Source: Phytopythium helicoides (taxonomy: Eukaryota; Oomycota; Peronosporomycetes; Pythiales; Pythiaceae). From it: 64,000 nucleotides of DNA. Position numbers and translations under genes: made by a program. Below the pieces are notes generated by a model. That model was not told the origin of the DNA and searched no databases. It saw only the letters and a list, made by a program, of their open reading frames with translations. Numbering within the stretch: position 1 is the stretch's first letter; each line of letters opens with the position of its first letter. The stretch spans positions 186,001 to 250,000 of the forward strand of contig JANFNE010000025.1 in the NCBI GenBank assembly GCA_024867545.1. Reading direction: 5' to 3'. This document shows positions 5,619 to 38,697 of the stretch, in pieces.

Positions 5619-7542
5619 ATGGCCGTCGGCAACGCCCCGAATAATGAGCCGACAGCTAACAATCCACAGGTCGCCCCTCCCGCTACTAGGAAGTCCCTTC
5701 CGTCAAGCCACATGCAGTCGCTGACCCTCATATCTCTTCCCACCCACCGACGCTCGAGCTTAGGAGCCACCCCATCTGCGAAGACCCTTCCACACCGTCC
5801 GCACTCGGACATTGGCGTCATTTCAGCCACTCTAGCGCCCCTCGACGAATTCAGCTCGAGCTTTCGTGATGTATTTGGATACCTCGGGATTCCCATGGTA
5901 ACTGCCTTCATACTGTCCGCAATCGCGATGGCGTTCACCGCGGTCGTGCAAGTTTTCCCCGACGAAATTGGCAACATGATTCTACAGACGCAAAACCTGG
6001 ATCACGGAGACTTCCTCATGCTTTCTAGACCGTCAATGCCGATGGTTGTGGCATCAACGATTTCTCTGGGCGTGTTTTGTTTCGGCTATATAGCACTTTT
6101 GGTCTTCATGTTCTCGCTCCGGAAGCGCAGCTTTATCGAGTCCATCTCAAGACCGACGCGCACCGCTTCACCGGCCCACCTTGCACTCGTGCGTATGATT
6201 GAGAAGATGAGAGCCTACGTCCTGACCAATCGAGATGCCACTGTTCGGCACGCGAAAGCGGAGGGAAGTCGTGTACGGTCTCCATCAATGCAAGTGCTGA
6301 AAAACAAGCTGTCAAACCAAAAGAGCGGTGTGAGCAACCTCGTTTTCGAATTTACGAGTATGGAGGGCCACTACCACGAATATTATGTAAGTGTTGGTGA
6401 TATCGCGGTCTCGAAACTTTGTCTGATGCTCGTTTGAAACCACAACAGGTAGCCATCTTCGACATCCCAAAGCTCATTTTCCAAACCGCTACTCTGATCA
6501 CGTACTTGAAAAAGGGGTTCCCATTAGCGATTGTGATTTTCTTTGCACTGCCACTCGCTTTCAACTGGGTAATCTCCTTCTACCGATTTCAGCGGCGATC
6601 CTCGGATCCAACACTCGTCGTCACCCGCATATTTTATCTGTACGCTATGCCTACTGCACAGGCCACGAGTTGAATACTATACTAATCTCATACGCTTTGA
6701 TGCGCAGCTTCGACCTATTCTTTGCAGTGTTCGCACCGATTTTTGCTCTGCTTTACTCGTACTACAACTTTCACTTGGATCGAGCCAATTTCGAGACACG
6801 CAAGGAGACACTGACGCTCGGGAGCTTCGATACGATCGCCAAGCTTTTCGCGGACCCTGTTCAAATCGAGGTGTTTCGACAGGGGTTCTCCAATCTCCAA
6901 CTGACGAAGCCATACTACCTTGTGATCAAGACCTTTCTCAATCTACTAGGCATCTACAAGTGGAAAAAGGTGATTGTGCATTTGATTGTGGAGAACTACC
7001 ATCGCCAGCAAGCAGCACCACAAGCTGAAACACAGCGCCAGAGAGTGCTATCGCACTCCCGGCGTCACCTTTTGCTTGGAGCGACGGTGTTCCTATGTTG
7101 CTCGCTCGGAATCGCTGTATACACCCTTGTAGCCATCATCACCAGCATCGACCGGTGCGCACATTACCCAAAATGCGCCGTATACTCCTACGTCTGGCAC
7201 ACAAGAAGCGACCAAACCTGCTCTTGCATCGTATTTATTGATCGAGACACGATGCCGCGCACTTATGATGAGTGGATCAATGCGACCGACGTGACGGAGC
7301 AAGTGCGGACGCTGGCGGCAGCAGGTACATTGGAGACGTTGCAGCTCATCAATCGCGCGATGCCGGAGGTGCCAGAAGAGTTACGACGGTGCAAGAATCT
7401 CAAGACATTGTGAGTACGGTGGAATTGGCAAATATTGTTGCTGATAACTAACTCAACTGCGCTCTTATCGACCAGAATTCTGTTGTACTCGCAGACGCAG
7501 AGACTACCAGATTGGACTAATGAATGGACTGAGCTTCAATAC
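5562..7542 (+). repeat. Left copy of a 1.98-kb direct repeat (WLGC-A side)
   Basis: Matches 8842-10822 at a constant offset of 3,280 bases. I found two substitutions, one changing residue 2 from Ala to Val and one in the third intron. It covers the 5' flank from about 57 bases before the ATG, exons 1-3 and nearly all of exon 4. Exon 5, just outside, is clearly diverged. Confidence 0.9.
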
Positions 7543-8321
7543 ATGTGAGTGCGACTGTTGATTCCTGATGTGGCATATGCGCGCTGACTAACTTTCGCTT
7601 CGTTAGGCATCTCGAAGGTGATTTCATTCACTACCCTCTTCAATACTTACCGAATAACCTATTTGTGGGCATGCTCGGACTGAGGTTCCTCCGAATCGCT
7701 GGTGCTGCTAAGCTTAAAACGTTTCCATCACTTGAGAGCCAATATGATTTATCGACTCTAGTTATTACTCTCGCCCGATCGCTGCGAGAGCTGCCGAGCT
7801 TCGATCATCTAACCAGCCTGCGAACAATGATCCTCGCCGAGCTGACTCATATCCCTGTGCTCCCTTCTCTCGCAAAGCTCCAGAGTCTTACAACATTTGC
7901 GCTTTTCCGACGCAATGAGGTCTGCTGTAACGGTTACGCGACAGGACTCTGTGATCTCGCCAACTTTCAGTGTCTCAATCAAGAAAATGAGCCTGATGTT
8001 GAGTGTGTGAATGCTCGAATGAGCGCACAGGACCACGCGGTTGTGAAGCGCGCCAACGGCTTACTTTGTACCTCAAATATTACTCAAGCCATCGACGTGT
8101 CCGAGCCAACGCGATATAGCACGGATGATATCTGCGGGGGTGTCATGTATCGCGAATGTTTCCTCGACGGGATTCGCGGGATCTGCTACAATGGTCGAAT
8201 GCAAGTCGTACACTGCGACGTGTTCGGTGAGTATGAGAAGATGCGGCGACTGCAAATCGTTCGAGGCGTGGGAGACCCTTGCGATCCGAAGGTCGAGGCG
8301 TGGCTCGGGTGTGAAGAATAA
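5619..8321 (+). CDS. WLGC-A: polytopic membrane protein with LRR and WLGC domains
   Basis: Exons 5619-6386, 6449-6639, 6708-7409, 7476-7544 and 7607-8321; all joins keep frame and give 814 residues. The cytoplasmic-looking Pro/Ser-rich N-terminus precedes membrane segments around F-D-V-F-G-Y-L-G, M-P-M-V-V-A-S, V-I-F-F-A-L-P-L-A, F-D-L-F-F-A-V-F-A-P and H-L-L-L-G-A-T-V-F. A Cys cluster (C-x5-C...C-x-C), short LRR-like repeats (L-P-S-F-x-x-L-x-x-L) and a Cys-rich end (V-C-C-N-G...C-F-N/Y-N-G-R-M-Q-V-V...G-V-G-D-P-C-D-P...E-A-W-L-G-C) follow. Five membrane crossings would put the LRR and WLGC parts outside the cell. The family is described in oomycetes by the WLGC motif; its biochemical role is not known to me. 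A receptor or adhesion role is inference. Confidence 0.8.
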
Positions 8322-8898: not shown

Positions 8899-10822
8899 AT
8901 GGTCGTCGGCAACGCCCCGAATAATGAGCCGACAGCTAACAATCCACAGGTCGCCCCTCCCGCTACTAGGAAGTCCCTTCCGTCAAGCCACATGCAGTCG
9001 CTGACCCTCATATCTCTTCCCACCCACCGACGCTCGAGCTTAGGAGCCACCCCATCTGCGAAGACCCTTCCACACCGTCCGCACTCGGACATTGGCGTCA
9101 TTTCAGCCACTCTAGCGCCCCTCGACGAATTCAGCTCGAGCTTTCGTGATGTATTTGGATACCTCGGGATTCCCATGGTAACTGCCTTCATACTGTCCGC
9201 AATCGCGATGGCGTTCACCGCGGTCGTGCAAGTTTTCCCCGACGAAATTGGCAACATGATTCTACAGACGCAAAACCTGGATCACGGAGACTTCCTCATG
9301 CTTTCTAGACCGTCAATGCCGATGGTTGTGGCATCAACGATTTCTCTGGGCGTGTTTTGTTTCGGCTATATAGCACTTTTGGTCTTCATGTTCTCGCTCC
9401 GGAAGCGCAGCTTTATCGAGTCCATCTCAAGACCGACGCGCACCGCTTCACCGGCCCACCTTGCACTCGTGCGTATGATTGAGAAGATGAGAGCCTACGT
9501 CCTGACCAATCGAGATGCCACTGTTCGGCACGCGAAAGCGGAGGGAAGTCGTGTACGGTCTCCATCAATGCAAGTGCTGAAAAACAAGCTGTCAAACCAA
9601 AAGAGCGGTGTGAGCAACCTCGTTTTCGAATTTACGAGTATGGAGGGCCACTACCACGAATATTATGTAAGTGTTGGTGATATCGCGGTCTCGAAACTTT
9701 GTCTGATGCTCGTTTGAAACCACAACAGGTAGCCATCTTCGACATCCCAAAGCTCATTTTCCAAACCGCTACTCTGATCACGTACTTGAAAAAGGGGTTC
9801 CCATTAGCGATTGTGATTTTCTTTGCACTGCCACTCGCTTTCAACTGGGTAATCTCCTTCTACCGATTTCAGCGGCGATCCTCGGATCCAACACTCGTCG
9901 TCACCCGCATATTTTATCTGTACGCTATGCCTACTGCACAGGCCACGAGTTGAATACTATACTAATCTCATACGCTTTGATGCGCAGCTTCGACCTATTC
10001 TTTGCAGTGTTCGCACCGATTTTTGCTCTGCTTTACTCGTACTACAACTTTCACTTGGATCGAGCCAATTTCGAGACACGCAAGGAGACACTGACGCTCG
10101 GGAGCTTCGATACGATCGCCAAGCTTTTCGCGGACCCTGTTCAAATCGAGGTGTTTCGACAGGGGTTCTCCAATCTCCAACTGACGAAGCCATACTACCT
10201 TGTGATCAAGACCTTTCTCAATCTACTAGGCATCTACAAGTGGAAAAAGGTGATTGTGCATTTGATTGTGGAGAACTACCATCGCCAGCAAGCAGCACCA
10301 CAAGCTGAAACACAGCGCCAGAGAGTGCTATCGCACTCCCGGCGTCACCTTTTGCTTGGAGCGACGGTGTTCCTATGTTGCTCGCTCGGAATCGCTGTAT
10401 ACACCCTTGTAGCCATCATCACCAGCATCGACCGGTGCGCACATTACCCAAAATGCGCCGTATACTCCTACGTCTGGCACACAAGAAGCGACCAAACCTG
10501 CTCTTGCATCGTATTTATTGATCGAGACACGATGCCGCGCACTTATGATGAGTGGATCAATGCGACCGACGTGACGGAGCAAGTGCGGACGCTGGCGGCA
10601 GCAGGTACATTGGAGACGTTGCAGCTCATCAATCGCGCGATGCCGGAGGTGCCAGAAGAGTTACGACGGTGCAAGAATCTCAAGACATTGTGAGTACGGT
10701 GGAATTGGCAAATATTGTTGCTGATAACTAACTCAACTGCGTTCTTATCGACCAGAATTCTGTTGTACTCGCAGACGCAGAGACTACCAGATTGGACTAA
10801 TGAATGGACTGAGCTTCAATAC
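8842..10822 (+). repeat. Right copy of the 1.98-kb direct repeat (WLGC-B side)
   Basis: Partner of 5562-7542, offset 3,280. Its right end falls inside exon 4 of WLGC-B, two bases after which the copies diverge. Confidence 0.9.
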
Positions 10823-11610
10823 TTGTACGTGTTTTGTTTTTTTATTGACCTGTGTGGTGCCGGTAGTTACTTTTTGCATGATGGTGCAGCCATATTGAAG
10901 GTGATTTCATTCACTATCCTCTTCAGTATCTACCGTATAATCTTTTCATACATATGCGTCAGCTACGCTTCGTTCGAGTCGGTGGTGCTGCTGCACTACC
11001 AGTGTTCCCATCCTTGGTAGGACAACACCAGCTCTCGACTCTCGTTGGCTCTATTGTCCGCGGTTTGCGAGATTTCCCAAATCTGGATGATCTCACAGGT
11101 CTTCGTGCACTTATCATTGCCGACGCTGTTCAATTACCAACGCTTCCGTCGCTTTCCAAGCTGTCAAGTCTTCGGATGTTTGCAGCTTTTCGCCGAAATC
11201 AGATTTGCTGTAACGGATTCGCCACAGGATACTGTGATCTCACCAATTTCCAGTGTCTAAAACGAGAGAATGAACCAGAGGTTCATTGCGTGGAAGCAAG
11301 AATGCCCGCAGAAGATCTTGCAGTAGTTCAAAGAGTCCACGGATTTCTGTGCGGCAAGAACATCACGCAGGACTTGGAAGCCTCGGAGCCTACTCGATAC
11401 AACACAGATAACGTCTGTGAAGGTGTCCAGTATCGCGAATGCTGGGTGAACAATATTCGCGGTATCTGCTACAACGGACGAATGCAAGTCGTCCACTGCG
11501 ATGTGTTCGGCGAATATGAGAGGATGCGACGACTGCAAATCGCTCGGGGTGTGGGAGACCCTTGCGATCCGAAGGTGGAAGCATGGCTTGGATGTTCCAG
11601 GTACGTCTAA
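8899..11610 (+). CDS. WLGC-B: polytopic membrane protein with LRR and WLGC domains
   Basis: Exons 8899-9666, 9729-9919, 9988-10689, 10756-10824 and 10890-11610, giving 816 residues. Residues up to the end of exon 4 match WLGC-A apart from Ala2 to Val and the last residue or two. Exon 5 (LRR and WLGC domain) is clearly different, with its own repeats (F-P-N-L-D-D-L-T-G-L, L-P-S-L-S-K-L) and the end E-A-W-L-G-C followed by S-R-Y-V. So A and B share one membrane module but carry different predicted ectodomains. From 9965 on the gene lies in the left arm of the inverted duplication, and its exons 3-5 reappear as WLGC-E. Confidence 0.8.
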
Positions 11611-13333
11611 GCTCTCAGTCGCCAAGTGAACAACTTAAATTGGCCGAAATCGTTGTGGTACATGCCGAAACAACCACTTGGTCGTGCATAAGGGAACCAA
11701 CGACGACGGCGGCAGAGTAGTCGTACATATAAAAATAAAGCGGACGTTCAGTTCCGAGCTTTTCTGGTGGCTGATCTTCTTGACTTCGTGGTTTACGCAC
11801 TACAGTATGGCGTCGGCTTCCATTGCTCCTGCACCATCCGAACCTTCCGTGCCAGAGTCTACGCCAAACTTTGTAGCGACTCTACCTCCCTCTGCCAGCT
11901 GTTCCGCCATGTTAGGTGATTCGCTTCAATCAACAGAGCCTAACTTAAAGCCAACCAGAAGGTCATCGGTGGACTCAGCTCCGTTTCAAAAGCATTCGAA
12001 TCTACACTTCCATCTCGATACATCGTCACAAGCAGGCCTGAGTCGCCGTCACTCCAGCTTTCATCCAGCAAACGCGGCATTGCCAGCGTTCCAAAGTCTC
12101 TCTGTCGGTTTCTTTGATGTTTTTGGGTATCTTGGTCTGATGATGATAGCTGCCTTTGCTTCATCGTCCATCGCTATGATCTTCCTAGCTTTTGTACAAA
12201 TCTTTCCAGACGAGATTGGAAATTGGATACTCAACACACAATCACTCGACAACGGTGACTTTCTCATGTTCTCCCAGGCATCACTTTGGCTTGTCGCGCT
12301 CTCCTCGATTACTCTGCTGGCGTTCTCAAGTGGCTACGTAGCGCTCATCGTCGTCATGTTGTGGTTTCGATCGCCTAAACTCCTGCAGATGATTTCTCGC
12401 CCGTCAAGAACTGCGTCAATTGGACATCGCATTCTCGCAAGATTTCTTGCTCAAAGCCGATTCGAGCGCTGGATCCCACAATTGGCATCAGTGATGCCGT
12501 CCGAGATTTCTGTGGCAAGGAAAAGCGACAGAAATCAAGTACTCCGACGAGTAACGACGGTTCGCCGACAGATTGCTAGCCGATTAATATTTGAGTTTAC
12601 CAGTATCGAGGGTCAGTTTCACGAGTATCATGTGAGTCTCCGTCATGGCTGTGCTGGCCAAGAATATTAGCTCACCAGAGTAGAATGTACTCTACTAAAT
12701 CGTTTTGGTTCATTGCACAGGTTGCAGCGTTTGACGTTCCCAAACTCACCTTCCAAACCGTTAGCTTGGTGCTGTACATGCATGATGGATTTCCTCTAGA
12801 GCTAATAGTCTTCTACGCACTGCCATTGGCTGTAAACTGGGCAGTGTCGTTCTACCGATTTCAGCGAGAGACACCCGATCCGATGTTGGTGACTTCACGG
12901 ATCGTTTATCTGTAAGTGAAGTCTTCAAGGATCTGCTGTTTGGTGCTCATACCAATTCTAACTGGACTATCCACCGCAGTTTTGACTTGTTCTTCGCCGT
13001 GTTCGCTCCTATTGTTGTGCTCGTCTATGCGTACAAAAATTTCAACATGGATCGTGCTACCTTTGCCTCTCGAGAGGACGCGCTCACCCCTGGCATGTTT
13101 GATCGGATAGCGAAGCTATTTGCAGATCCAGTTGAGGTTGAAGTCTTCCGTCAAGGCTTTTCCAGCATGCAGATCACCAAGCTGTACTATTTGGCTATCA
13201 AGGCTTTCCTTAATCTACTGGGCATCTACAAGTGGAAAAAGGTGATTGTACACTTAATTGCAGAAAGTCACCATAGGTTTCTGAATACCCCGCGAAGTGC
13301 GAGTCGGGAAATCTCGCGGCGACGACATTCACG
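9965..13333 (+). repeat. Left arm of a large inverted duplication (3,369 bases)
   Basis: Near-identical to the reverse complement of 18172-21540; positions pair as x and 31505-x along the whole arm, so there is no net indel. Only scattered substitutions were noticed. It spans exons 3-5 of WLGC-B, the spacer, and exons 1-2 plus half of exon 3 of WLGC-C. Confidence 0.9.
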
Positions 13334-16902: not shown

Positions 16903-19698
16903 TCATGAGCATCCGAGCCACGCCTCGACCTTCGGATCGCATGGATCGCCCACGCCTCGAACGATTTGCAGTCGCCGCATCTTCTCATATTCGCCAAACA
17001 CGTCGCAGTGTACGACTTGCATTCGACCATTGTAGCAGATGCCGCGAATCCCGTCGAGGTAGCATTCGCGATACATGACACCCCCGCAGATATCATCCGT
17101 GCTGTATCGCGTTGGCTCGGACACGTCGATGTCCTGCGTGATGTTATTTCCGCAGAGAAATCCATTGACTCTCTTCACAACCGCGTGGTCCTGTGCGGAC
17201 ATCCGAGCAGCCTCACAGTGAACTTCTGGCTCGTTTTCTCGCTTGCGGCATTGGAAGTTGGTGAGATCGCAGTATCCCGTCGCGTAACCGTTGCAGCAGA
17301 CTTCATTGCGTCGAAATAATGTGAAGGAGGTTAAACTCTGGAGCTTTGCGAGAGAAGGAAGCACAGGGATATGAGTCAGCTCTGCCAGGATCATCGTTCT
17401 CAAGCCAGTTAGGTGGTCGAACCTCGGCAGCTCTCGCAGTGATCGGACATTGGTGATGACTAGTGTCGATAAGTAGCGTTGGCTCTCGAGGGACGGAAAC
17501 TGCTTCAGTTTCGCCGCCCCAGCAATTCGTAGAAATCTCAGATCACGCATGACCGTTAACAGATTGTAAGGTAGGAATTGAACAGGATAGTGGATGAAGT
17601 CGCCTTCGAGATGCCTACCCAGGCGATCAATTGGTGAGCTAACATCTTCAAAGTTCATTCGTCGACGACGTGCACACTCAGAAGCACTCACATGTATCGC
17701 ATTTGAGTCCATACGCTTGCCCACTCGGGAAGGGACTGTGTCTGTGAGTACAACAGAATCCTACAAATCAGCATAAAACACGTTAGTTGTTGTCATCATC
17801 GTTGTAAAATTGTCAACACATACAATGTCTTGAGATTCTTGCACCGTCGTAACTCTTCTGGCACCTCCGGCATCGCGCGATTGATGAGCTGCAACGTCTC
17901 CAATGTACCTGCTGCCGCCAGCGTCCGCACTTGCTCCGTCACGTCGGTCGCATTGATCCACTCATCATAAGTGCGCGGCATCGTGTCTCGATCAATAAAT
18001 ACGATGCAAGAGCAGGTTTGGTCGCTTCTTGTGTGCCAGACGTAGGAGTATACAGCGCATTTTGGGTAATGTGCGCACCGGTCGATGCTGGTGATGATGG
18101 CTACAAGGGTGTATACAGCGATTCCGAGCGAGCAACATAGGAACAGGACGGCCCCAAGAAGTAAGTGTCGTCGTGAATGTCGTCGCCGCGAGATTTCCCG
18201 ACTCGCACTTCGCGGGGTATTCAGAAACCTATGGTGACTTTCTGCAATTAAGTGTACAATCACCTTTTTCCACTTGTAGATGCCCAGTAGATTAAGGAAA
18301 GCCTTGATAGCCAAATAGTACAGCTTGGTGATCTGCATGCTGGAAAAGCCTTGACGGAAGACTTCAACCTCAACTGGATCTGCAAATAGCTTCGCTATCC
18401 GATCAAACATGCCAGGGGTGAGCGCGTCCTCTCGAGAGGCAAAGGTAGCACGATCCATGTTGAAATTTTTGTACGCATAGACGAGCACAACAATAGGAGC
18501 GAACACGGCGAAGAACAAGTCAAAACTGCGGTGGATAGTCCAGTTAGAATTGGTATGAGCACCAAACAGCAGATCCTTGAAGACTTCACTTACAGATAAA
18601 CGATCCGTGAAGTCACCAACATCGGATCGGGTGTCTCTCGCTGAAATCGGTAGAACGACACTGCCCAGTTTACAGCCAATGGCAGTGCGTAGAAGACTAT
18701 TAGCTCTAGCGGAAATCCATCATGCATGTACAGCACCAAGCTAACGGTTTGGAAGGTGAGTTTGGGAACGTCAAACGCTGCAACCTGTGCAATGAACCAA
18801 AACGATTTAGTAGAGTACATTCTACTCTGGTGAGCTAATATTCTTGGCCAGCACAGCCATGACGGAGACTCACATGATACTCGTGAAACTGACCCTCGAT
18901 ACTGGTAAACTCAAATATTAATCGGCTAGCAATCTGTCGGCGAACCGTCGTTACTCGTCGGAGTACTTGATTTCTGTCGCTTTTCCTTGCCACAGAAATC
19001 TCGGACGGCATCACTGATGCCAATTGTGGGATCCAGCGCTCGAATCGGCTTTGAGCAAGAAATCTTGCGAGAATGCGATGTCCAATTGACGCAGTTCTTG
19101 ACGGGCGAGAAATCATCTGCAGGAGTTTAGGCGATCGAAACCACAACATGACGACGATGAGCGCTACGTAGCCACTTGAGAACGCCAGCAGAGTAATCGA
19201 GGAGAGCGCGACAAGCCAAAGTGATGCCTGGGAGAACATGAGAAAGTCACCGTTGTCGAGTGATTGTGTGTTGAGTATCCAATTTCCAATCTCGTCTGGA
19301 AAGATTTGTACAAAAGCTAGGAAGATCATAGCGATGGACGATGAAGCAAAGGCAGCTATCATCATCAGACCAAGATACCCAAAAACATCAAAGAAACCGA
19401 CAGAGAGACTTTGGAACGCTGGCAATGCCGCGTTTGCTGGATGAAAGCTGGAGTGACGGCGACTCAGGCCTGCTTGTGACGATGTATCGAGATGGAAGTG
19501 TAGATTCGAATGCTTTTGAAACGGAGCTGAGTCCACCGATGACCTTCTGGTTGGCTTTAAGTTAGGCTCTGTTGATTGAAGCGAATCACCTAACATGGCG
19601 GAACAGCTGGCAGAGGGAGGTAGAGTCGCTACAAAGTTTGGCGTAGATTCTGGCACGGAAGGTTCGGATGGTGCAGGAGCAATGGAAGCCGACGCCAT
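16903..19698 (-). CDS. WLGC-D: polytopic membrane protein with LRR and WLGC domains
   Basis: Exons 18874-19698, 18594-18784, 17824-18525, 17692-17760 and 16903-17614 on the minus strand; lengths sum to 832 residues in frame. Exons 1, 2 and the first half of exon 3 are the intact partner of truncated WLGC-C. From about 18143 to 17824 the sequence switches to near-identity with WLGC-A/B, a conversion-like tract that encodes the fifth membrane segment and Cys cluster. Exon 5 resembles WLGC-A (L-R-F-L-R-I-A-G-A-A-K-L-K) and ends E-A-W-L-G-C-S. The gene is a mosaic: C-like membrane half, A/B-like middle, A-like ectodomain. It begins in the right arm and ends in the centre of the inverted duplication. 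Confidence 0.8.
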
Positions 19699-21540
19699 AC
19701 TATAGTGCGTAAACCACGAAGTCAAGAAGATCAGTCACCAGAAAAGCTCGGAACTGAACGTCCGCTTTATTTTTATATGTACGACTACTCTGCCGCCGTC
19801 GTCGTTGGTTCCCTTATGCACGACCAAGTGGTTGTTTCGGCATGTACCACAACGATTTCGGCCAATTTAAGTTGTTCACTTGGCGACTGCGAGCTTAGAC
19901 GTACCTGGAACATCCAAGCCATGCTTCCACCTTCGGATCGCAAGGGTCTCCCACACCCCGAGCGATTTGCAGTCGTCGCATCCTCTCATATTCGCCGAAC
20001 ACATCGCAGTGGACGACTTGCATTCGTCCGTTGTAGCAGATACCGCGAATATTGTTCACCCAGCATTCGCGATACTGGACACCTTCACAGACGTTATCTG
20101 TGTTGTATCGAGTAGGCTCCGAGGCTTCCAAGTCCTGCGTGATGTTCTTGCCGCACAGAAATCCGTGGACTCTTTGAACTACTGCAAGATCTTCTGCGGG
20201 CATTCTTGCTTCCACGCAATGAACCTCTGGTTCATTCTCTCGTTTTAGACACTGGAAATTGGTGAGATCACAGTATCCTGTGGCGAATCCGTTACAGCAA
20301 ATCTGATTTCGGCGAAAAGCTGCAAACATCCGAAGACTTGACAGCTTGGAAAGCGACGGAAGCGTTGGTAATTGAACAGCGTCGGCAATGATAAGTGCAC
20401 GAAGACCTGTGAGATCATCCAGATTTGGGAAATCTCGCAAACCGCGGACAATAGAGCCAACGAGAGTCGAGAGCTGGTGTTGTCCTACCAAGGATGGGAA
20501 CACTGGTAGTGCAGCAGCACCACCGACTCGAACGAAGCGTAGCTGACGCATATGTATGAAAAGATTATACGGTAGATACTGAAGAGGATAGTGAATGAAA
20601 TCACCTTCAATATGGCTGCACCATCATGCAAAAAGTAACTACCGGCACCACACAGGTCAATAAAAAAACAAAACACGTACAAGTATTGAAGCTCAGTCCA
20701 TTCATTAGTCCAATCTGGTAGTCTCTGCGTCTGCGAGTACAACAGAATTCTGGTCGATAAGAACGCAGTTGAGTTAGTTATCAGCAACAATATTTGCCAA
20801 TTCCACCGTACTCACAATGTCTTGAGATTCTTGCACCGTCGTAACTCTTCTGGCACCTCCGGCATCGCGCGATTGATGAGCTGCAACGTCTCCAATGTAC
20901 CTGCTGCCGCCAGCGTCCGCACTTGCTCCGTCACGTCGGTCGCATTGATCCACTCATCATAAGTGCGCGGCATCGTGTCTCGATCAATAAATACGATGCA
21001 AGAGCAGGTTTGGTCGCTTCTTGTGTGCCAGACGTACGAGTATACAGCGCATTTTGGGTAATGTGAGCACCGGTCGATGCTGGTGATGATGGCTACAAGG
21101 GTGTATACAGCGATTCCGAGCGAGCAACATAGGAACACCGTCGCTCCAAGCAAAAGGTGACGCCGGGAGTGCGATAGCACTCTCTGGCGCTGTGTTTCAG
21201 CTTGTGGTGCTGCTTGCTGGCGATGGTAGTTCTCCACAATCAAATGCACAATCACCTTCTTCCACTTGTAGATGCCTAGTAGATTGAGAAAGGTCTTGAT
21301 CACAAGGTAGTATGGCTTCGTCAGTTGGAGATTGGAGAACCCCTGTCGAAACACCTCGATTTGAACAGGGTCCGCGAAAAGCTTGGCGATCGTATCGAAG
21401 CTCCCGAGCGTCAGTGTCTCCTTGCGTGTCTCGAAATTGGCTCGATCCAAGTGAAAGTTGTAGTACGAGTAAAGCAGAGCAAAAATCGGTGCGAACACTG
21501 CAAAGAATAGGTCGAAGCTGCGCATCAAAGCGTACGAGAT
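18172..21540 (-). repeat. Right arm of the large inverted duplication (3,369 bases)
   Basis: Reverse complement of 9965-13333. The inner end falls in exon 3 of WLGC-D. The outer end falls in the intron just before exon 3 of WLGC-E, where unrelated sequence begins. The spacer between arms is 4,838 bases (13334-18171). Confidence 0.9.
19895..21517 (-). pseudogene. WLGC-E: 5'-truncated WLGC gene (copy of WLGC-B exons 3-5)
   Basis: Sequences corresponding to exons 20816-21517, 20681-20749 and 19895-20615 mirror WLGC-B exons 3, 4 and 5 with intact splice sites and stop. Exons 1 and 2 and the promoter are missing, because the duplication boundary at 21540 cuts the preceding intron. Upstream of that, the frame reads unrelated sequence. 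An ATG in exon 3 could start a protein from the fourth membrane segment on, but nothing suggests a promoter. Best read as a fragment, useful as a donor for conversion with WLGC-B. Confidence 0.8.
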
Positions 21541-21859
21541 GTGTATCCACACGTGACCTTCGAGACGCGAGGATCTCTTCAAGAGAATCGTACGTAGCTG
21601 ATCTCTTCCTAGGGGCTTCTCAACGACGCTGCTACCTTTCCTGTGGATGCATGGCGGCACGTGGTGTCTGCACAAGTGGACGTCGATGTCAAGTCGAGGT
21701 AATCGCGCTTTCAACGTTGGGCGCGTGCAACCATATACTTTACCGACGCTGAGACGCTCCGGTCCGCAGTATGCCGGAATTTATTTGGTAATGTTGCATG
21801 TACTGGTTTTTATGCACTGAATTAATAGGTAAATACCGACTTTTCAACCTTCCGCGGTC
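21541..21859. other. Spacer between WLGC-E fragment and ORC4
   Basis: About 320 bases of sequence unrelated to the WLGC family, starting exactly at the duplication boundary. It includes the likely ORC4 promoter. An open frame on the minus strand continues out of WLGC-E but has no recognisable similarity. Confidence 0.5.
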
Positions 21860-22242: not shown

Positions 22243-22293
<51 letters not shown>

Positions 22294-25276: not shown

Positions 25277-25362
25277 ATGCACTAGAGACGTAGGATTTCC
25301 TCTTTGGAATCTCAAAACAATGCGATTGCCAAGATTGTTTAGAAGATTTGTGTACTCAAAAA

Positions 25363-27159: not shown

Positions 27160-29758
27160 TTACGAGGTCGAGCAGCCGAGCCACTGTTCGATCGCAGGGT
27201 CGCACGCGGGGCCGACACCGCGCGCGATCTCGAGGCGACGCATGTTGATGTAGTCGGGCACGGTCACGCAGTTGATGACCTGCATGCGCGAGTTGAAGCA
27301 CATGCCGGGCTTGCCGTTCACCTGGCACTGCTTGTACATGATGCTGCCGCACGCCTCGTCAGTCGTGAGCAGTGTCGGAGCCAGCTTGGTGAGGTCAATA
27401 GTTGCAGTCTTGTTGCAGTAGGAGCCGCCGAACGTACGAAGAGTGGCATTGTCTGCGGCTGAAATACGCGCGTCTGTGCACTGCACGACAGACTCACCTG
27501 GCTTTGGGCTGCATGAGAACTGCGTTAAGTCGCACTCACCAAAGAGGAATCCATTGCAGCACACAGCAGATCGGTATCGCAAAGAGATTGCCTTGAGGTG
27601 CTTGAGATGAGAGAATGACGGAAGCGTCGGTACGTGAGTCATATCGACCAGTATCAGAGTCTTCAGTCGGACGAGTCCATCAAAGCTTGGGAGTTCGCTC
27701 AGTGAGAAGCCACCCGCAATGGCAAGATACTGCAGCTGGGGTAAATTTGTTAAAGACGGTATCTTTGGAACCTTGGAGATCGACCCTAAATGCAAGAATG
27801 TCATGTGGCGGTAGTTGTCAAACATACCATCGGGGAGGGCCTTCAGACGGCGGCTCGTAAAGTCCCCTTCATAGTGCCTGGAGATTGAGGCGTCAGCGTT
27901 AGTAAATGATATGGCTATACTGTTCACATCACTTACAAGTACTCGAGCGATGAAAATTCGGAGACCCAGTCGGGAAGCACTTCCGTTTTCGAGTAGATGA
28001 GGATCAACTGCTCGAGGTTTTGGCATTTGCGGACTGAATCAGGGAGCACTGGAACAGCTCGATTGATGATCTGAATGATTCGTAACTCTCCAGCGTACGC
28101 CAGCTCTTCGAGATTGGCTGTTGTGTCAACCGGGTTGTTCCATTCCTCGAATGTAGTCGGCGCTAGTTGTCGGTCGACAAACATGAGGCACGTACAGTGC
28201 TTGTTTCCAACGTTCCACTTGTAGCTGGAAATTCCACACCGCGAGTACTTATGACACAGTTTATGAGTCGAATCCACCGCAACAACAGAGTATACAAACA
28301 CCGCAATACCAGCAAACAAGAATATCCCAGCGACAAACAATTTAGGTAGATCACGCTGGTGAAGATGATACTTCTTGATTTCAGACGGCACAGCTGTCTC
28401 TTCCTCTCTCAGCTCTTCGCTCCTGGGCTTAACTTTCTGAAACTTCGAATCTTTCGTAGGTGCATCTTGGTTATTATTCTGAGTGTGGAAAAGGGTGTAG
28501 ATGATTTTTGTCCACTTGTACAACGAAAGCGCATTCAGGGCAGACTTGTAAAAGATGGATGACCCGTTGGTGAGCTGGAGGTAGTGGAAGGCACTGCAAA
28601 AGCCAGTAATCTGAGCGGGATTTCCGAATAATCGCGCAATGCGGTCAAATGAGCCCTTGGGTAACGTCTCTTCTCGTACTCGGAATGTGTTCCTGTCGAA
28701 TTCAAAGTTGTACACAAAGTACACGAGCACAACTAGCGGTGAAAATACGGCAAAGAAAAGGTCAAACCTAGCATCAAGTCGTTGTTAGGATGTCAATACG
28801 CAATAAAGGAAGGCAAAACAGTCGAATGGACTTACATGTAGAATTGCCGTGACAGCACGAGTCGCGGATCTACATGGAATCGCTGATAGCGGTAGCAAGC
28901 AACGAGCCAATTCGCAAGGAGTAAAACCGAGTAGAAAAAAATGAGAGAAGTTGGAAAACCACGGCGCAAGTATGTTATAAGAGTCGTTGTCTGAAATATG
29001 AGCTTTGGTAGATCCAACGCTGCATTCTGTCAGTATTGAGTGGCATCAATTTCAGTAAGTGCAACAGCATCGAAAACAAAGAAAAAGTCGTAACCTACAA
29101 AGTAGTGGCGCTCCAATGGTGTCGGGTGTGTGAATCGAGATTTCATGGCACGAAAAGATTGCTTCACTAGCTGTAAACCTTGAGCATGTCCAGGTCTGGA
29201 CCCAGTATGGTTTGTAGTTGTCGTAGTGTTTGTCGTAAACCACTGGCGACCAAATAGCATGTAGACGACAAGCCACAGGTAGCCGATTCCAAACACAAAA
29301 AGGAGCACAACAGATGAAGCCACAACTGGTGTTTCAACTTGAGCTAGCATCCAGAACTGCCCGTTGTCAAAATGAGTAGTGCTCATTATAGCATTTGCCA
29401 TGTCATTCGTGTAAACTTGAATGAACGCGAGCATGAAAGTCCAGAGAGCTGACAATGTGAAGACAACAACCATCGCCACTCCTAGGCGCCCGAAAACTGC
29501 AAAAAAGGAGTCGACTTCTGTGGTGACAGAACCAGTGAAAACTTGTAGTTTCGACATTCGCTTGTTGGTTTGAGTGGTTTCGTTGTGAATGACGGAGCTA
29601 GATTGATCTTTGTTGGCGAGGTTATCACCATCCTGAATGCCGTCTGTTCCATCGACAAGAGTGCTTATATGCGCAGCGTTCACAGGTTCTTCATCTTCTT
29701 CACATGCCCTTTCTAGTATAGGCGGCAAGGAAGGGGCTTCGTTTCCACCTACGTCCAT
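27160..29758 (-). CDS. WLGC-F: polytopic membrane protein with LRR and WLGC domains
   Basis: Exons 29099-29758, 28836-29026, 27937-28767 and 27160-27877 on the minus strand; 799 residues. Exon 2 is again exactly 191 bases. What are exons 3 and 4 in WLGC-A, B and D are fused here. Membrane segments follow the family pattern (F-G-R-L-G-V-A-M-V-V-V-F, V-V-A-S-S-V-V-L-L-F-V-F-G, L-I-F-F-Y-S-V-L-L-L-A-N-W-L, F-F-A-V-F-S-P-L-V-V-L-V-Y, L-F-V-A-G-I-F-L-F-A-G). Then come the Cys cluster (C-H-K-Y-S-R-C-G...C-T-C), LRRs and the end E-Q-W-L-G-C-S-T-S. It heads a clean head-to-tail array F-G-H-I, more diverged from one another than A-E. Confidence 0.8.
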
Positions 29759-29997: not shown

Positions 29998-32612
29998 TTA
30001 CGAGCAGCCAAGCCAAGCTTCAACCTCAGGATCACACGGATCACCTACTCCCCTCTCGATCTGCATTCGACGCATCGCTTGATACTCGGGAATGATTACA
30101 CAATTGACGACCTGCATTCGCGAGTTGAAGCATATCCCTGTCTGGTTGTTGAGCTCACACTGCTTGTACAATACTCCTCCGCACAATCCATCCGTTGTGT
30201 ATGAAGTTGGAGCGATCATCATAAGATCGACATTGTCTGAGCCATCCGTTGGGCAGTAAAATGCGTTGACAGAATGTAGTACTGCGAGATCTTTGGTGGG
30301 AATTCGATCGTTCGTGCATGTGACAAGCGGTTCGTTTGCACGAGGGTAGCAAGCGAACGCAGTCAAATCGCACTTCCCCGTCAAATATCCGTTGCAGCAC
30401 ATGGAGTTGCGAAATCGCAGCGTAAAGCTCTTGATTGATTTGAGAGGTGTCAGTGCTGGTAGTTTGGGGATATGAGTGCCGTCAGCGAGTAGAAAACTTT
30501 GAAGATGGCCCAGGGAGTCGAAGCTTGGCAGAGCTGTCATTGACTCAAGACCGGCAAGTACGAGGTATTGAAGGTGATGGAGATTCAAAAGCGACGGAAC
30601 TTTGGGAACATCTACGATCCCTCCGAGATGAAGGAACGTAAAGTGATCCCAGTGGTCGAACATACCTTCAGGGAGCGCTTGAAGTCTCCGTGGGGTCAAA
30701 TCAGCTTCGATGTGCCTAAGTCAAAGTCAAACACGCCAATTCGTTAGTAACAAATGAGTTCCGACGGCTACATCTATACTTACAGATATTCCATGCTGTG
30801 GAGCTCCCCAATCCATTCAGGCAAGTGCTGAGTCTTGGAGTAAATGAGAATGATGCGTTCGAGACCCTGGCAGTTGCGCACGGATTCAGGAATTTCTGGT
30901 AGAGCACGATTAATTATCTGAATAATCCGAAGCTCCCCTGCGACTGCAAGCTCTGCTAGATTAGCAGTAGTATCCTCTGGATAATTCCATTCGGCAAACG
31001 ACTTGATCACAGGCTGGCGATCAACGAACATTAGGCAGGTGCAATGCTCGTGTCCGATATTCCACTGATAACTGTATATGGTACAGTGGGCATACTGGTG
31101 GCAAAGCTTTGCGGTCGAGTCAACAGCAACGATTGAATATGTGAAGAGGGCTGATCCAGCGAGAAAGAAGAGGGCGCCAACAATGCGCATTGGCCAGGCA
31201 CGGTGACTAGCGATATTTGTGGGTGGGGCCGAATTTACTGGTGGTGATGCTGTAGCTAGATAAGCTTCCTTCTTTTGGGTATCAAGACAGTGGTCATTGC
31301 TAATCCCGCGGCTGAGAGGCTTGACTACCGATCGACGTTTGTCGTGGAAGTTTTCGATCAGAGTCACAATAATTTTACGCCACTTGTAGAGTGAAAGTAT
31401 ATTCAGTGAGGCTTTGAAAAATATGTGGCTTGCAGACGAGAGCTGCAAATAGTGAAAGGCGCTGCAAAAACTCGAGATCTGAGCCGGGTCACCATATAAG
31501 CGTGCAATTCGGTCAAAATTCATGGGTGACATAGTTGCTTGCTTGATTTCAAAAGTTGCACGATCAAACCGGAAATCGTAAATGAAGTACACCAGCACCA
31601 CGAGCGTCGCGAACACTGCGAAGAACAGGTCGTACATGTAGAAAAGACGAGCGACAATCAGCCGCGGATCAACAAGGTATCGCTGATATCGATAGCTCGA
31701 AACAAAGAAATTGATGAGAAGTAAAGAGGAGTAAAAGTAGATGAGGGGTGTTGGAAAGCCGCGGCGAAGATACGTGAAAAGGGTAGCGGCTTGAAAAATC
31801 AGTTTGGGAACGTCCAAGACTGCGTTCTAGTGGTATCAACAATTAAAGTTGTTGAGTCAAATTGATTCAGGGTTTTTGGATCTGTAGGGGATACGTACAT
31901 AATAATGGCGCTGAAGAGGCGGTAAGTCGTGTAGGTAGTGCAGTGTAGCCTTCAAACCCGAGGACACTCTGTTGCATGATCTCTTGATGATAGGGACTGA
32001 TGCAGAATCTGTTGGTTTGTGCCCCGTTTCTTGTTTAAGCTTGCGTTGACCAGTTAGTCGAAAGAATATCACCATATAGATAGCAAGCCACAAGTACCCA
32101 AGTCCAAAGAGCACTAGAAGCACTACTGCAACTGCTATGACGCCGGGATCAGGCTGCGGAAGCAACCAAAACTGACCGTCGTCAATCTGAGTTGTGTTCA
32201 TGATGGCGTTTGCCATCTCATTAGGGTAAACTTGAATGAAAGCGAGTGTGAACGTCCACAGAGCTGATACCACGAATATCACCACCATGGGTAGTCCGAA
32301 GTAGCCAAAAACTTCAAAGAATGTCTCGGCCTCATCAAGCGAGTTGCGCGAGAAAGTATTGAAGCGATCTGCTATCGCAGATGGACGCTTGCCAATCGAA
32401 GCTCTATGTGCAGATATTGCTGGCAATGATGCTTTATCGGGGCCTTCATCCCTCGGAATGGTACAGGAGTCATTCTCGAGACGTATGTCTTCTGTTTGCT
32501 TGATCAGATTTAACACGTTCACTGGTTCATCAATCACATGGGTCCCTTCTCGCGTAACAAGCTCGTCAACGCCTTGGGGCCGTGCATCTAGGCTAAGGGT
32601 TCCGACTCCCAT
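29998..32612 (-). CDS. WLGC-G: polytopic membrane protein with LRR and WLGC domains
   Basis: Exons 31899-32612, 30784-31826 and 29998-30715 on the minus strand; 824 residues. This is the most intron-poor intact member: the intron after exon 2 is missing (R-L-F-Y-M-Y-D-L-F-F-A-V-F read straight through), as is the one between exons 3 and 4. Five membrane segments, the C-H-Q-Y-A-H-C-T-I...C-T-C cluster, LRR-like repeats and the E-A-W-L-G-C-S end are all present. An upstream in-frame ATG at 32717 would add a hydrophobic leader; 32612 is chosen because paralogues start with hydrophilic tails. Confidence 0.8.
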
Positions 32613-32909: not shown

Positions 32910-35656
32910 TTACTTACAGCCTAACCAAGCCTCGACAGCTGGATCGCAGGGATCACCGACACCGCGGGCAATCTGGAGCTGTCTCATCGCAATGTACCCT
33001 GGTACAATTACACAGTTGATGACTTGCATACGAGAGTTGAAGCATATTCCTGGTTTGCCATTCAGACTGCATTGCCGGTACAAAATGCCTCCGCACAACG
33101 TTCTAGTCATGTATTCCGTTGGTGCGAGTCGAGTGGTATCCAGTGTCATGTTGGCTGGGCAGTAGGTTGAGTTGATAGAGTCGAGCTTCTTTTTATCTGC
33201 AACAGAGATTCGCTCGTCGGTGCATGTGACTAATGGCTCATTTGCGTGAGGAGAGCAATAATAGTCGGTCAGGTCGCATTTTCCTGTCATAAATCCGTTA
33301 CAGCATACGGCATTGCGGTATCGAAGTACGAACAATTGAAGATGGTTTAGCCGAGCAACTGACGGAAGTATAGGTGCATGCGCAGCATCAACAACCTGGA
33401 TCCGCTGGAGCTTGTGAAGCTTTGAGAAGTCAGGTATCTCGGGGATTGAGATAAGACCAGCCATGACCAAGTACCGCAGATTGTGGAGCTTCTCCAGCGA
33501 TGGGATTACGGGGACATGGAAAATGCCGCCAAGATGAAGAAACGCAAGATGTGGCCAATTGTCGAACATGCCGTCTGGAAGCGAAGTGAGTTGTACAGAG
33601 GTCATATCACCTTCATAGTGACTGAAGAACACGTAGGGGGAAACCACATAAGTTAAAGACCAGATGTAAGTCATTTGGGAGAGAAGGTTACGTACAAATA
33701 CTCGAGCTGAGAGAACTCGGTGATCCAGTCAGGAAGTTCAGTCGTCTTGGTATAGATAAAGATGATCTGTTCTAAATGCTTGCACCGGCGTAGAGATTCC
33801 GGGAGCTTTGGTACTGCGCGATTAATGATTTGAACAATGCGCAACTCCCCGGCAATTGCAAGTTCTCCGAGACTGGCAGAGGTATCTACTGGATGCAGCC
33901 ATTCATCGTATGTCTTGACCACCCGCTGTCTGTCTACGAACACTAAGCATGTACAGTGCTTGGCACCAACATTCCACTGGTAGCTTGCCACCACGCAGTG
34001 CTTGTACTTGTCACAAAGCTTTTTCGTCGAGTCAACCGCGACACCTGCATAAGTAAAAATTATTCCACCAGCAATGAGGAACGATGCAGCCACAAGCAGC
34101 TTGGCCCAGTCACACTTGACTGCTCGCGCATGTTTTACCGCAACAGCAACGGCTTTTGCACTTCCTTGATGTTTCATATCCAAAGTTTTGGGAACATGAG
34201 GCGCTACGATTGTTTTCTTTGCTTTCGGCTCTGAATTCTCCTGTAGAGAAGGATCCCTCGTGCGTTCCCGTGCATTGTGGATGAGAGCAGCCGTAATCTT
34301 TCTCCATTTGTATAGCGATAACACGTTGAGTGCAGACTTGTAGAAAAGAGAGCTGCCACTCGTGATTTGCAGGTAATGAAATGCGCTGCAGAAACTTGAG
34401 ATCTGCTCGGGACTTCCATACAATCGAGCGGTATTATCGTACGTGCCTTTGGGCAGCATCTCAAGGCGAGGCCCAAAAGCCGCACGGTCGAAATTGAAAT
34501 TATAAATGAAATAGACCAGCACAGTGAGGGGAGCAAACACTGCAAAGAACAGATCAAAGCTGTATAATAGCGTTAGAATGGCATTCGTGATTGCGGCTAA
34601 AAGAAAAGCTTGGAACGTACCCGTAGAACAGCCGAGCAATGACAAAATGAGGATCGACTTGAAGCCGGCGGTATCGATAGCATGACACGAGCCAGTTAAC
34701 AAGCAAGAGGTGCGAGTAGAAGAAGATAAGGGCCTTCGGAAATCCACGGTTAAGGTAAGTGAACAGCGTTGTGGTCTGAAATATAAGTTTCGGGACATCG
34801 AGCGCTGCATTCTGCGGGCTCATTGAAAGAGTCAGTATACACAACATGGAGATTGCGTCAATGGTCTTCCTGTACTTACAAAGTAGTGTCGTTTTAGAGG
34901 TGTTGGATTGGTGCATTGCTCCCTCAGCCAAATCATCGCCTCACTGAATTTGGTCATTTCTTTGCTCTGTTTAAGGTCTGGCGAATCTGATGTTTGAGTC
35001 TCGTGAGATTGTTCTGAAGGAGGCCTTTTCAACGGCTGATCAATATTCCGAAGGCCCACAAGCATGTATACGGCGAGCGCGAAATATCCGAAAGCAAATA
35101 GCACCAGCAAAACTACCGAAGATACAACAATCGGTGTGTCAGGCTGTGGTAGCAGCCAGAAATCGCCGTAGTCGAACTCGGCAGTATTCATGATACTGTT
35201 AGCCATTTCGTTTGGATACAGCTGGATGATTGCCAGCACAAGCGTCCAGAGCGCCGAGAAGACAAACACGACGATCGACGCAATCCCGAGGTAGCCAAAG
35301 ACGTCGAAGAATGACACAACTCGACTCCTCGCAACGGCCACTCGAATAAATGATCCGTGGCTCACAGCGTGCAAGAATCCCGATGCGGATGCAGGGATTG
35401 CAAGCATTGAATGTCGCTTAGGAGGAGGTGCTCTCGGAGTTGTTGGCTCTCTCGATACCATGGCTGGAGCTGAAGCACACACGGGTAGGCTTCTACGAGC
35501 CAATGCGTCGTTCGTTTCGTGAATGAGAGCATCAACTGAGGTCAAAGAGACGGGAGCCATGCTTGCAAGCTCGGTGGCTGAATGTGTTCTTTCCACTCGG
35601 GCGAGCTCCCGGACATCTGGGTCTGACCGGCGTTTTGGCTGGTCTTCCGACGCCAT
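32910..35656 (-). CDS. WLGC-H: polytopic membrane protein with LRR and WLGC domains
   Basis: Exons 34880-35656, 34621-34811, 33696-34559 and 32910-33621 on the minus strand; 847 residues, frame kept at all joins. The N-terminal cytoplasmic tail is Ser/Pro/Arg-rich (D-Q-P-K-R-R-S-D-P-D). The loop between membrane segments 4 and 5 is longer than in A-E and very Lys-rich. Five membrane segments, C-D-K-Y-K-H-C-V-V...C-T-C, LRRs and E-A-W-L-G-C-K at the end are clear. An upstream in-frame ATG at 35725 is less likely. Confidence 0.8.
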
Positions 35657-35932
35657 GCTGTACTTCGAAGACCTGGAATTGCTCGACCACAGAGAAAGCT
35701 GAGCAACTATCAAGAACACTGGCAAACTGCGAGTGAATGAAGGAACGACTGTTCGCCATCGCGTCCGTTATATTGCTTCTTCGTCGAATTCAAAAACCAA
35801 AGCTGGTCGCTGACGCCATCACTAGCCAAAATAGATTGGAAAGATAGTTGATGAAGACAAGAGTAAATGTTAAATGACGAAACCAACCATATGGGCTCTG
35901 TTGTCCAAGTTTGTGGTCGTGCGATTTCTAGT

Positions 35933-38697
35933 CTACTGCGTTGCCTTACACCCAAGCCAGGATTCAATTTCTGGGTCGCATGGGTCGCCCACACCTCGCT
36001 GGATCTGAAGCTTCCGCACTGTGATGTATTCGCTGTTGGCGACGCAGCTAATGACCTGCATACGAGCGTTGAAGCAGATACCAGCAATACCGTTCAACGC
36101 ACACTGACGATACATCGTTCCCCCGCAGAGCTCGTCAGTGGAATGCTTTGTGGGCATGAGCTCCTTACTGTCTACTGTTAAATTCTTTGTGCACAAGCTT
36201 GCATCAATTGCCCCGAGCTTTACCTTGTCAGAATCTGGTAAGCGTGCGCTTGTGCAAGTCACATTAGGCTCATCTTCTCGAGGTTTACACTGGAAAGCAG
36301 TCAAATCGCACTCGCCAGTGATAAAGCCGTTACAGCATACAGCATTTCGTTTGATTAACTCCATGTGCTTCAGCATTTTCAACGGTTGGAAAGATGGAAG
36401 AGTCTCGACGTGCTGTGCATCGACAATGCTTAATGAACGGAGGTCATCCAAGCCGTCAAACTCTGGAATGGAAGTAATCGAGAAGAGACTAGTCAACGTC
36501 AGTGTCTGCAGATGGTGAAGATTGCTGAATGACGGTAGTTCTGAGATCCCTGCCATCCCACCTAGTCGGAGAAAAAACAAGTGAGGCATGTTTGAAAAAA
36601 CATTGTTTGGTATAGACTGAAGCGTTCGATTGGTATAGTCTGCCTCAATGTGGCTAGCGGTAATGATTACAGATGTTAGACATGCAAATCGACACAATAA
36701 GACACCACATAAAAAAACTGATTACGTACAGATATTCCAACCGAGAAAAGTTTTGGATCCACTCTGGCAGACGCGTTGTTTTGGTGTATATGAGGATGAG
36801 TTGCTCAAGCTGACTACAGTGCTGTAGCGTTTCAGGTAGTTCTGGCACAGCACGATTAATTATTTGCACGATGCGTAGCTCACCTGCCATCGCAAGTTCT
36901 TCAAGGACAGAAATTGCATCCTCTGGATTTTCCCATTGTGCAAAAGTTTTTGGTGCAGTCTCGCGATCAACAAACATCAGACACGTGCAATGCTTTGAGT
37001 TGACATTCCACTGGTAGCTCACGACACCGCATTGAGCGTACTTGTTGCACAAACTGTCGCTTGATGTGATAGACACAATTGAAAAAACGAGCACACTCAC
37101 TCCTGCAAAGAAAAAACTTGACGATAGCAGCATCTTAGAAGGCGTTCGCTTGCCAAATTCGTCTCGCACTTTCTGTGTGATAGAGTCTCGAAGAGCACCA
37201 ACTGATCCTGTCGATCGCTCTGCTGTGCTAGCTGGCCGTGACTGCTCGTTGACCGATTGTCGCTCACTCTTTGTGTCAGCATGGTGTTTATGTCCATGCC
37301 GAAACTTTTGTTCTAAGTCAAAGTTATGTGCAAGCGCGAAGATAATCTTGAACCACTTGAACAATGAAAGGAGATTCAGTGCTGATTTCATAAGCAATGA
37401 TCCCACGGTTGTGAACTGCAGGTAGTGAAAGGCACTTCGGAAGCTTGAGATGTGTGCCGGGTCGCCGAAAAGTCGAGCTGTCCGGTCGAAGACAGAAATC
37501 TTGAAGCCCTCTTGACGTGTCGCAAATGCAGCTCGATCAAATTCAAATGTGTTGAAAAAGTAGACCAGAACAACAAGCGGTGCGAAAACAGCGAAGAACA
37601 GGTCGAACCTGTTTACGGAGTTAGTTTATGTGAGAGATCGAATAAGATTGAGAGAATGAACTTCACGCACATATAGAATAGCCGTGGGATGATCAGAAAA
37701 TGATCGATTAGGTAGCGCTGGTACCGGTAGAATGATAAAAACCAGTTGGCAAGCTGCAGAGTCAGGTAGAAGTAGATAATGGGCAATGGAAAGCCCAGGC
37801 GTAAATACGTGATGAGCGATGCCGTCTGAAAAAATAGTTTGGGCATATCAAGCAGCGCATTCTACAGTATCAGCGAGTACTATGTCTTTAGTATTGTTTT
37901 CGCACAATATCAGAGACATCTAATTGGCTTACCATATATTCACGCTTTTCTGGAGTCATCACTGCAAAGCGTCGAGCAAGCTGACGAACAGCCAATACGA
38001 TCTTATGATTTTGAGAGTTTACAGCACGATGCACAGATGACTTCACTTTGGTGCTGCTGTTCAGATTTTGTAAGGAGTCTTTGGTCGATGATGTTTTCGG
38101 CATTGGACGGCATGAAAAGTACAGCATCAAGGCTGCTAAAGCCAGATATCCTAGACCAAAGAGTATGAGCAGCGCAACTGCTGCACCTGTTAGCTCCGAC
38201 GGGGGCTTGGGCAAAAGCCAAAAGTTTCCGTTATCGAAGCTAGACGTCCTCATAAGGCTGTTCGCAATTTTTGTTGTGTATACTTGAATGACGGCGAGCA
38301 TAAAAGTCCAAGCAGCTGACAGTACGAATGCAATGAACATTGGGATGCCTAGAACGCCAAAGATTTGGTAGAAGCGGCTCACGTCACTCACCACCACTTC
38401 TATTATCGACGATCGGCGGGGCTGGGGCAACAATGGAGCTGGGGATACTGGACTGATTGCCATATCCACCATTTTGAGTCTGTGAGCAAGGGGAGTATGA
38501 CCCAGAGCCGCTGAAAGTGGTTTTTCAACTTCAGGTGCGTTGTCGGTTGCAAGAATGATAGCTTCTAGCCCGCCCGGGTCATCAAACACCCTAGAGTCTT
38601 CTCTTTTCCCTACCACATGCTCATTCCTCAGCGCAGATACGTCTTGTGGTTCGCTAGAATGGTTGGTTTGCTCGCCAAAACTCTGGTCGTGTGGCAT
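35933..38697 (-). CDS. WLGC-I: polytopic membrane protein with LRR and WLGC domains
   Basis: Exons 37933-38697, 37671-37861, 36730-37608 and 35933-36653 on the minus strand; 851 residues. The membrane core (I-F-G-V-L-G-I-P-M-F-I-A-F, A-V-A-L-L-I-L-F-G-L-G-Y, I-I-Y-F-Y-L-T-L-Q-L-A-N-W-F) and Cys cluster (C-N-K-Y-A-Q-C-G-V...C-T-C) are conserved. The C-terminus reads E-S-W-L-G-C-K-A-T-Q, so the Ala before Trp is replaced by Ser. The exon 1/2 junction lies after Y-M rather than H-Y-Y/F, a slight drift. An in-frame ATG at 38805 exists upstream. Last member of the array. Confidence 0.8.

Follow-up and report, generated by a model that had tools for sequence, protein, structure and literature searches.

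We analyzed a 64,000-nucleotide stretch of the Phytopythium helicoides genome (contig JANFNE010000025.1, hereafter C19, positions 186001 to 250000; genome size, 49.06 Mb), referred to below as the window, and found in it an array of nine WLGC-family membrane protein gene copies at 5619-38697. Copies were sought by exon-wise tblastn with copy 1 (c1). Seven have complete spliced models and two (c3 and c5) are truncated. Exchange of the C-terminal part of the proteins, here called the ectodomain, is the most interesting new point and is exact to the exon in the pair c1/c2. The copies and the repeats and tracts within the array are as follows, in window coordinates.

5619..8321, plus strand: c1, intact, 814 residues; exons 5619-6386, 6449-6639, 6708-7409, 7476-7544 and 7607-8321
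5562..7542, plus strand: c1 tract of 1,981 bp with 2 mismatches to c2, stopping two bases short of the exon 4 end and so leaving out exon 5
7607..8321, plus strand: exon 5 of c1, the ectodomain exon (leucine-rich repeats and Cys-rich WLGC domain), 69.9% identical in nucleotides to exon 5 of c2
8899..11610, plus strand: c2, intact, 5 exons, 816 residues (spliced model)
9959..13333, plus strand: left arm of an inverted repeat, 3,375 bp, 99.64% identical to the other arm (alignment, 12 mismatches)
11807..13333, plus strand: c3, truncated within exon 3 at the end of the inverted repeat (exon-wise tblastn, repeat alignment)
16903..19698, minus strand: c4, intact, 5 exons, 832 residues (spliced model)
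18172..21546, minus strand: right arm of the inverted repeat (alignment)
19895..21546, minus strand: c5, truncated, exons 3 to 5 only, starting at the end of the inverted repeat (exon-wise tblastn, repeat alignment)
27160..29758, minus strand: c6, intact, 4 exons, 799 residues (spliced model)
29998..32612, minus strand: c7, intact, 3 exons, 824 residues (spliced model)
32910..35656, minus strand: c8, intact, 4 exons, 847 residues (spliced model)
35933..38697, minus strand: c9, intact, 4 exons, 851 residues (spliced model)

The complete models encode 799 to 851 residues and have GT-AG introns of 59 to 89 bp, with five exons in c1, c2, and c4, four in c6, c8, and c9, and three in c7. Of the fragments, c3 retains exons 1 and 2 and part of exon 3, and c5 retains only exons 3 to 5. 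Because the intact copies are 36 to 90% identical over ∼800 residues, their resemblance is not due to chance. They fall into two groups, c1/c2/c4 (63 to 90% identical) and c6 to c9 (45 to 54%), with 36 to 39% identity between groups.

From the N to the C terminus, each protein comprises a variable tail, five predicted transmembrane segments (TM1 to TM5), a C-x5-C/C-x-C cluster, leucine-rich repeats (LRRs), and a Cys-rich WLGC end. Each protein shows five strong hydrophobic segments, as does the average over a 46-sequence family set, which also underlies the spacing, cysteine-column, charge-rule, and shuffled-sequon figures below; one or two weaker segments could bring the number to six or seven. 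Mean spacing is ∼31 residues between TM1 and TM2, ∼93 in the TM2-TM3 loop, ∼16 between TM3 and TM4, and ∼120 in the long, basic TM4-TM5 loop, and ∼347 residues follow TM5. With five strong segments, the proteins do not have the one membrane helix of a single-pass LRR receptor. Both the C-x5-C then C-x-C pattern and the WLGC motif occur in 7/7 complete models, and W, L, G, and C are invariant columns in an alignment of 39 relatives (picked by eye from 78, mainly excluding short, fused, or near-duplicate sequences). The Pfam family LRR_14 matches 38 of these 39 relatives at E ≤ 1, with the scores of c1 and P0004 under the curated cut-off, and the LRR part of the family profile matches LRRTM, LGR4/5, VLR, and LRRC8A chains among the best 60 of 213 matches. 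The LRR of the WLGC family is an ordinary one.

Database matches reach E values of 9.3e-287 for c8 and 4.4e-274 for c1, with the top matches 53% and 51% identical, respectively. Homology across most of the length, together with the C-terminal WLGC motif, places the window proteins in the family of Phytophthora, Plasmopara, Nothophytophthora, Pythium, Globisporangium, and Lagenidium proteins labeled as WLGC domain containing (PF26605). Precomputed PF26605 assignments cover 36/56 and 19/22 of the relatives; the window proteins are linked to them by homology and not by a PF26605 scan. All four modules (TM1-2, the conserved core, TM5 with its Cys cap, and LRR plus WLGC) are found in 59 of 88 retrieved relatives, and we saw no structural difference from the database proteins, to which the records we found assign no function. 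Every relative with a species name is an oomycete, although some matches carry none, and searches of this kind, which require words in common, say nothing about absence of the family outside oomycetes. These results bear out what an earlier note on this stretch, made from the letters alone, had described: nine copies, seven of them intact (exon-wise tblastn and spliced models), with five membrane segments (hydrophobicity), the C-x5-C/C-x-C cluster and a C-terminal WLGC domain (cluster and WLGC motif in 7/7 models), LRR-like repeats (LRR_14 in 38/39 relatives), and a label known from oomycetes.

Scanning 29 fetched regions and the window with our own profiles for the four modules, we counted at least 47 copies or fragments in the genome; the ectodomain module is present in 43 of them and the full set of four modules in 39. 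More may exist, as the regions were picked from a search that scored 53 of 189 candidates, and some of the eight partial genomic copies are partial merely since the fetched region stops there. The module profiles revealed no family copy in L059, the fetched region upstream of the window. A further copy (L058, G000:C19:79000-84000) lies on C19 as well, at a distance of ∼140 kb from c9, and is 92.8% identical to c9 in the ectodomain but only 79.9% in the TM1-2 module. Based on sequence, the array belongs to a predicted polytopic membrane protein family of oomycetes that forms several clusters.

Several copies are mosaics. Exons 1 to 4 of c1 and c2 (577 codons) have three nonsynonymous differences, of which two fall near the junction end, and not a single synonymous one, whereas in exon 5 the proportion of synonymous differences (pS) is 0.66 and the ratio of nonsynonymous to synonymous divergence (dN/dS) is 0.15. 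A tract of ∼330 bp around TM5 and the Cys cap is shared by c4 and c1, with dS of 0.15 there. On another contig, C1, two copies (L035:9-1030 and L035:1747-4129) are 98.6% identical in the TM5 module and 65.7% in the ectodomain, and a second pair (L032:777-3157 and L032:5289-7643) has the reverse pattern, 66.6% and 88.7%. Because both directions occur, these contrasts are hardly explained by differences in rate.

Trees of the 39 genomic copies with all four modules also speak for exchange. Membrane and ectodomain trees conflict, with log-likelihood differences of 155.3 and 283.4 (maxima over 40 random codon splits, 75.2 and 101.1); a slower tree search gave 159.4 and 289.1 (maxima over four random splits, 57.8 and 114.6). 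The approximately unbiased test returned very small p values, but odd/even splits and 7 of 8 random-split comparisons also fell below 0.05, so we dropped the p values and relied on the likelihood differences. The conflict persists when the window genes are left out (118.0 and 269.9), and mosaicism within the window rests on the c1/c2/c4 tracts.

The locus has also been rearranged. The two arms of the inverted repeat (3,375 bp, 12 mismatches, 99.64% identity) pair 9959-13333 with 21546-18172. One stops within c3, the other where c5 begins, and they enclose a VPS9-domain gene, a ferredoxin gene, and the remainder of c4. One inversion, if its breaks were staggered, would account for both truncated copies. 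The order c4 then ferredoxin, on one strand, matches four predicted proteins of P. cactorum and P. fragariaefolia with WLGC modules followed by Fer2, and the order MINDY-3/4 then c9 matches two such predicted proteins, from P. boehmeriae and Pythium insidiosum. We read the WLGC-Fer2 and MINDY-WLGC proteins as merged neighboring genes; gene order would therefore be conserved. Since this flanking order recurs in other oomycetes, the locus would be old and the inversion recent.

Selection was assessed in pairs with dS of 0.02 to 0.8 and at least four synonymous differences; the pairs overlap in their members. Median dN/dS was 0.16 in the membrane module (0.10 to 0.51; 12 close pairs) and 0.185 in the ectodomain (0.13 to 0.42; 20 close pairs), with ranges of 0.07 to 0.44 in the LRR part (17 pairs) and 0.03 to 0.50 in the WLGC part (22 pairs). 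Close pairs are under purifying selection in membrane module and ectodomain alike. No 15-codon ectodomain window exceeded a pN/pS of 0.72 (44 windows, 11 pairs), which speaks against site-wise diversification at pairwise and windowed resolution. The N-terminal tail is loosely constrained (e.g., dN/dS of 0.875 for c7/c9, where dS is high). The earlier note had pictured a rapidly rearranging recognition family, and the inverted repeat and the mosaic genes support recent rearrangement; diversifying selection did not appear, with purifying selection in both modules and windows at or below 0.72. Uniform purifying selection, which the note had named beforehand, jointly with equal copy number across species, as grounds for giving up its receptor idea, is what we found in the close pairs tested.

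The membrane topology bears on which side the LRR/WLGC part occupies. Downstream of TM5 there are seventeen cysteine columns conserved at 98 to 100%, and before TM5 no cysteine column reaches 70% (three stand at 41 to 59%). The same 17 cysteines are near-invariant in paralogues outside the window, where the weakest column is present in 31 of 34. The charge rule (lysine plus arginine near the membrane) favors an inside N terminus in 46/46 sequences with either five (mean score, 10.8) or seven (15.0) helices, and the C terminus would therefore be outside. The TM1-TM2 loop is acidic (mean of 1.2 lysine plus arginine versus 4.1 aspartate plus glutamate), and 30 of 43 genomic copies carry a sequon there. 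Sequons exceed the shuffled expectation in this loop (28 versus 15.8), compared with 12 versus 18.4 in the N-terminal tail, 27 versus 27.9 in the TM2-TM3 loop, and 18 versus 25.3 in the TM4-TM5 loop. Because of the cysteine pattern, the charge rule, and the acidic, sequon-bearing TM1-TM2 loop, we regard it as very probable that the LRR/WLGC ectodomain lies outside the cytosol, and the odd-number topology proposed in the earlier note is supported.

Taking these lines together, we tentatively favor, with slightly less than even confidence, a polytopic surface sensor that would combine an exchangeable LRR/WLGC ectodomain with a conserved core, both under purifying selection. The variable N-terminal tail would lie in the cytosol, five (possibly seven) membrane helices would form the strongly conserved core, and the C-terminal 350 residues, comprising the cysteine-capped LRR and the WLGC domain, would face the outer or luminal side. 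The ectodomain may bind an extracellular ligand while the core relays a signal or works with a partner. New combinations would arise when recombination brings a membrane half that is already present together with another ectodomain exon, and both halves would meanwhile be kept under purifying selection. We infer the cell-surface location moderately and ligand sensing weakly.

Several results weigh against such a sensor. Pfam scans of c1 and the 39 aligned relatives revealed no kinase or other signaling domain, and positive selection was not found in pairwise or windowed dN/dS. The loop sequon occurs in just 1 of the 8 window copies that have the TM1-TM2 module; the sequon enrichment expected in the C-terminal part was not found (89 observed versus 86.0); and the short TM3-TM4 loop, which would be outside under the five-helix model, carries ∼3 lysine plus arginine residues. 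Cytosolic Cys-rich domains can bind zinc too. When the C1 genes are removed along with the window genes, leaving 24 copies, the tree conflict drops to 33.8 and 24.3, so most of the tree signal is due to C1. TM1-2 and the rest of the core also conflict (102.8 and 113.9), and the comparison of LRR with WLGC, made with no size-matched control, gave 39.4 and 79.0; exchange is therefore not limited to the boundary of the ectodomain. The recognition idea may be plausible but is not favored by the selection results.

Oomycete LRR receptor kinases share with the WLGC family an LRR that is, or would be, extracellular in oomycete membranes and a proposed recognition role; the sections of the surveys PMC2939053 and PMC3268121 used here treat LRR kinases. 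The former requires a single TM segment of an LRR receptor, and the WLGC family would therefore fall outside that count. The receptor kinases have one TM segment and a kinase, in contrast to the polytopic, kinase-free WLGC proteins. Our literature search returned nothing on the WLGC family or its function among the matches listed. It is conceivable, though doubtful, that the family represents a further plan of LRR surface receptor, with a polytopic core and a C-terminal outer LRR, that diversifies by swapping ectodomain exons rather than by site-wise positive selection. Cassette-based recognition repertoires would follow a comparable logic, if that reading holds.

LGR4/5, matched by the LRR profile, also have a polytopic core and, outside the cell, an LRR with cysteine caps, but in LGRs the LRR is N-terminal to a 7TM core, unlike the C-terminal LRR of the WLGC family. 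No G-protein-coupled receptor family appeared among the Pfam matches of the 39 relatives.

Rather unlikely, in our view, is a channel, scramblase, or transporter whose core does the work and whose C-terminal LRR serves regulation or assembly, as in the LRRC8 volume-regulated anion channels, which also have a polytopic N-terminal part and a C-terminal LRR. Conservation is highest in the TM3-TM4 core (61% mean pairwise identity, versus 47% for LRR and 54% for WLGC), and LRRC8A is among the LRR profile matches. However, the core profile (9 sequences) matched no solved structure at E ≤ 10, and homology of the membrane part to LRRC8 or pannexins was thus not found at the sequence level; in Pfam the membrane part has only stray weak matches (e.g., ATP_synt_H in 3/39 members; best E, 0.1). 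LRRC8 channels cross the membrane with four helices and have their LRR in the cytosol, and we know of no cysteine caps in them, whereas the helix count here is more likely odd and the cysteine-capped LRR would, by its sequence features, lie outside.

An adhesion or wall anchor, in which the ectodomain attaches wall glucans or matrix to the plasma membrane without signaling, is also unlikely. Glycans or proteins are frequent ligands of LRR ectodomains, and the Pfam scans of c1 and the 39 relatives yielded no signaling domain; a simple anchor would not, however, need a core more conserved than its ectodomain. We consider it improbable that the LRR/WLGC part is cytosolic, with metal-binding cysteines and an even number of passes. 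A weaker hydrophobic segment (the DLPKLIFQ region) could give six passes with an inside N terminus still favored in 35/46 sequences, and the TM3-TM4 loop is positively charged, but the two six-helix models (inside N terminus favored in 35/46 and 17/46) lower the charge score from 10.8 to 3.6 or -0.7; the TM1-TM2 loop is acidic and sequon bearing; and the 17 cysteines lie on both sides of the LRR and beyond it, whereas the N-terminal half has no conserved ones. Blocks that are nearly identical and lie within 16 kb pose a difficulty for assembly, but assembly errors are a very improbable source of the mosaicism and the inverted repeat given the scattered mismatches in the c1/c2 tract and repeat arms, the similar module contrasts on C1, and the agreement of the WLGC-ferredoxin and MINDY-WLGC orders with other species.

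If the sensor reading is correct, a kinase-free polytopic class would be a sizeable missing part of oomycete surface, partner, or host sensing, and dozens of copies with fixed architecture and exchangeable ectodomains would offer a testable ectodomain set for ligand screens. The family label was already in databases; the count of at least 47 copies or fragments in one genome and the mosaic pattern are new here.

A profile of the WLGC part (nine sequences) matched no solved structure at E ≤ 10. DUF3737 matched 1/9 WLGC slices (E, 0.0024) and 11/39 full proteins (best E, 0.026), below its cut-off where scores are known; we put these matches down to chance.

Some database relatives carry additional domains. 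P0038 (P. boehmeriae) and P0050 (P. kernoviae) have a kinase and WLGC membrane modules within one predicted protein; these are probably merged neighboring gene models, although a real fusion would be notable. P0066 (Pythium oligandrum, 927 residues) has all four modules plus a trypsin domain (precomputed PF00089), and a Trypsin match occurs in one of the 39 aligned members (E, 2.5e-51). We assume that the trypsin part of P0066 and the ferric reductase part of P0056 also reflect merged models.

In c1, c4, c6, and c7 a stop codon directly follows the exon 4 donor (c1, window 7541-7549), so that an unspliced intron 4 would yield a protein lacking the ectodomain. Nine database models (P0001, P0034, P0038, P0041, P0042, P0045, P0046, P0050, and P0052) stop at this donor, which may be a gene-model error.

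Elsewhere in the window, three glycosyl hydrolase 53 genes or fragments lie in a row on the minus strand at 103-4376, and 44735-47896 and 48941-52018 hold a tandem pair of PH-domain plus cellulose-synthase-like glycosyltransferases. Near the ORC4 gene, a minus-strand run of >40 adenines (about 22246-22292) is a possible assembly or intron feature.

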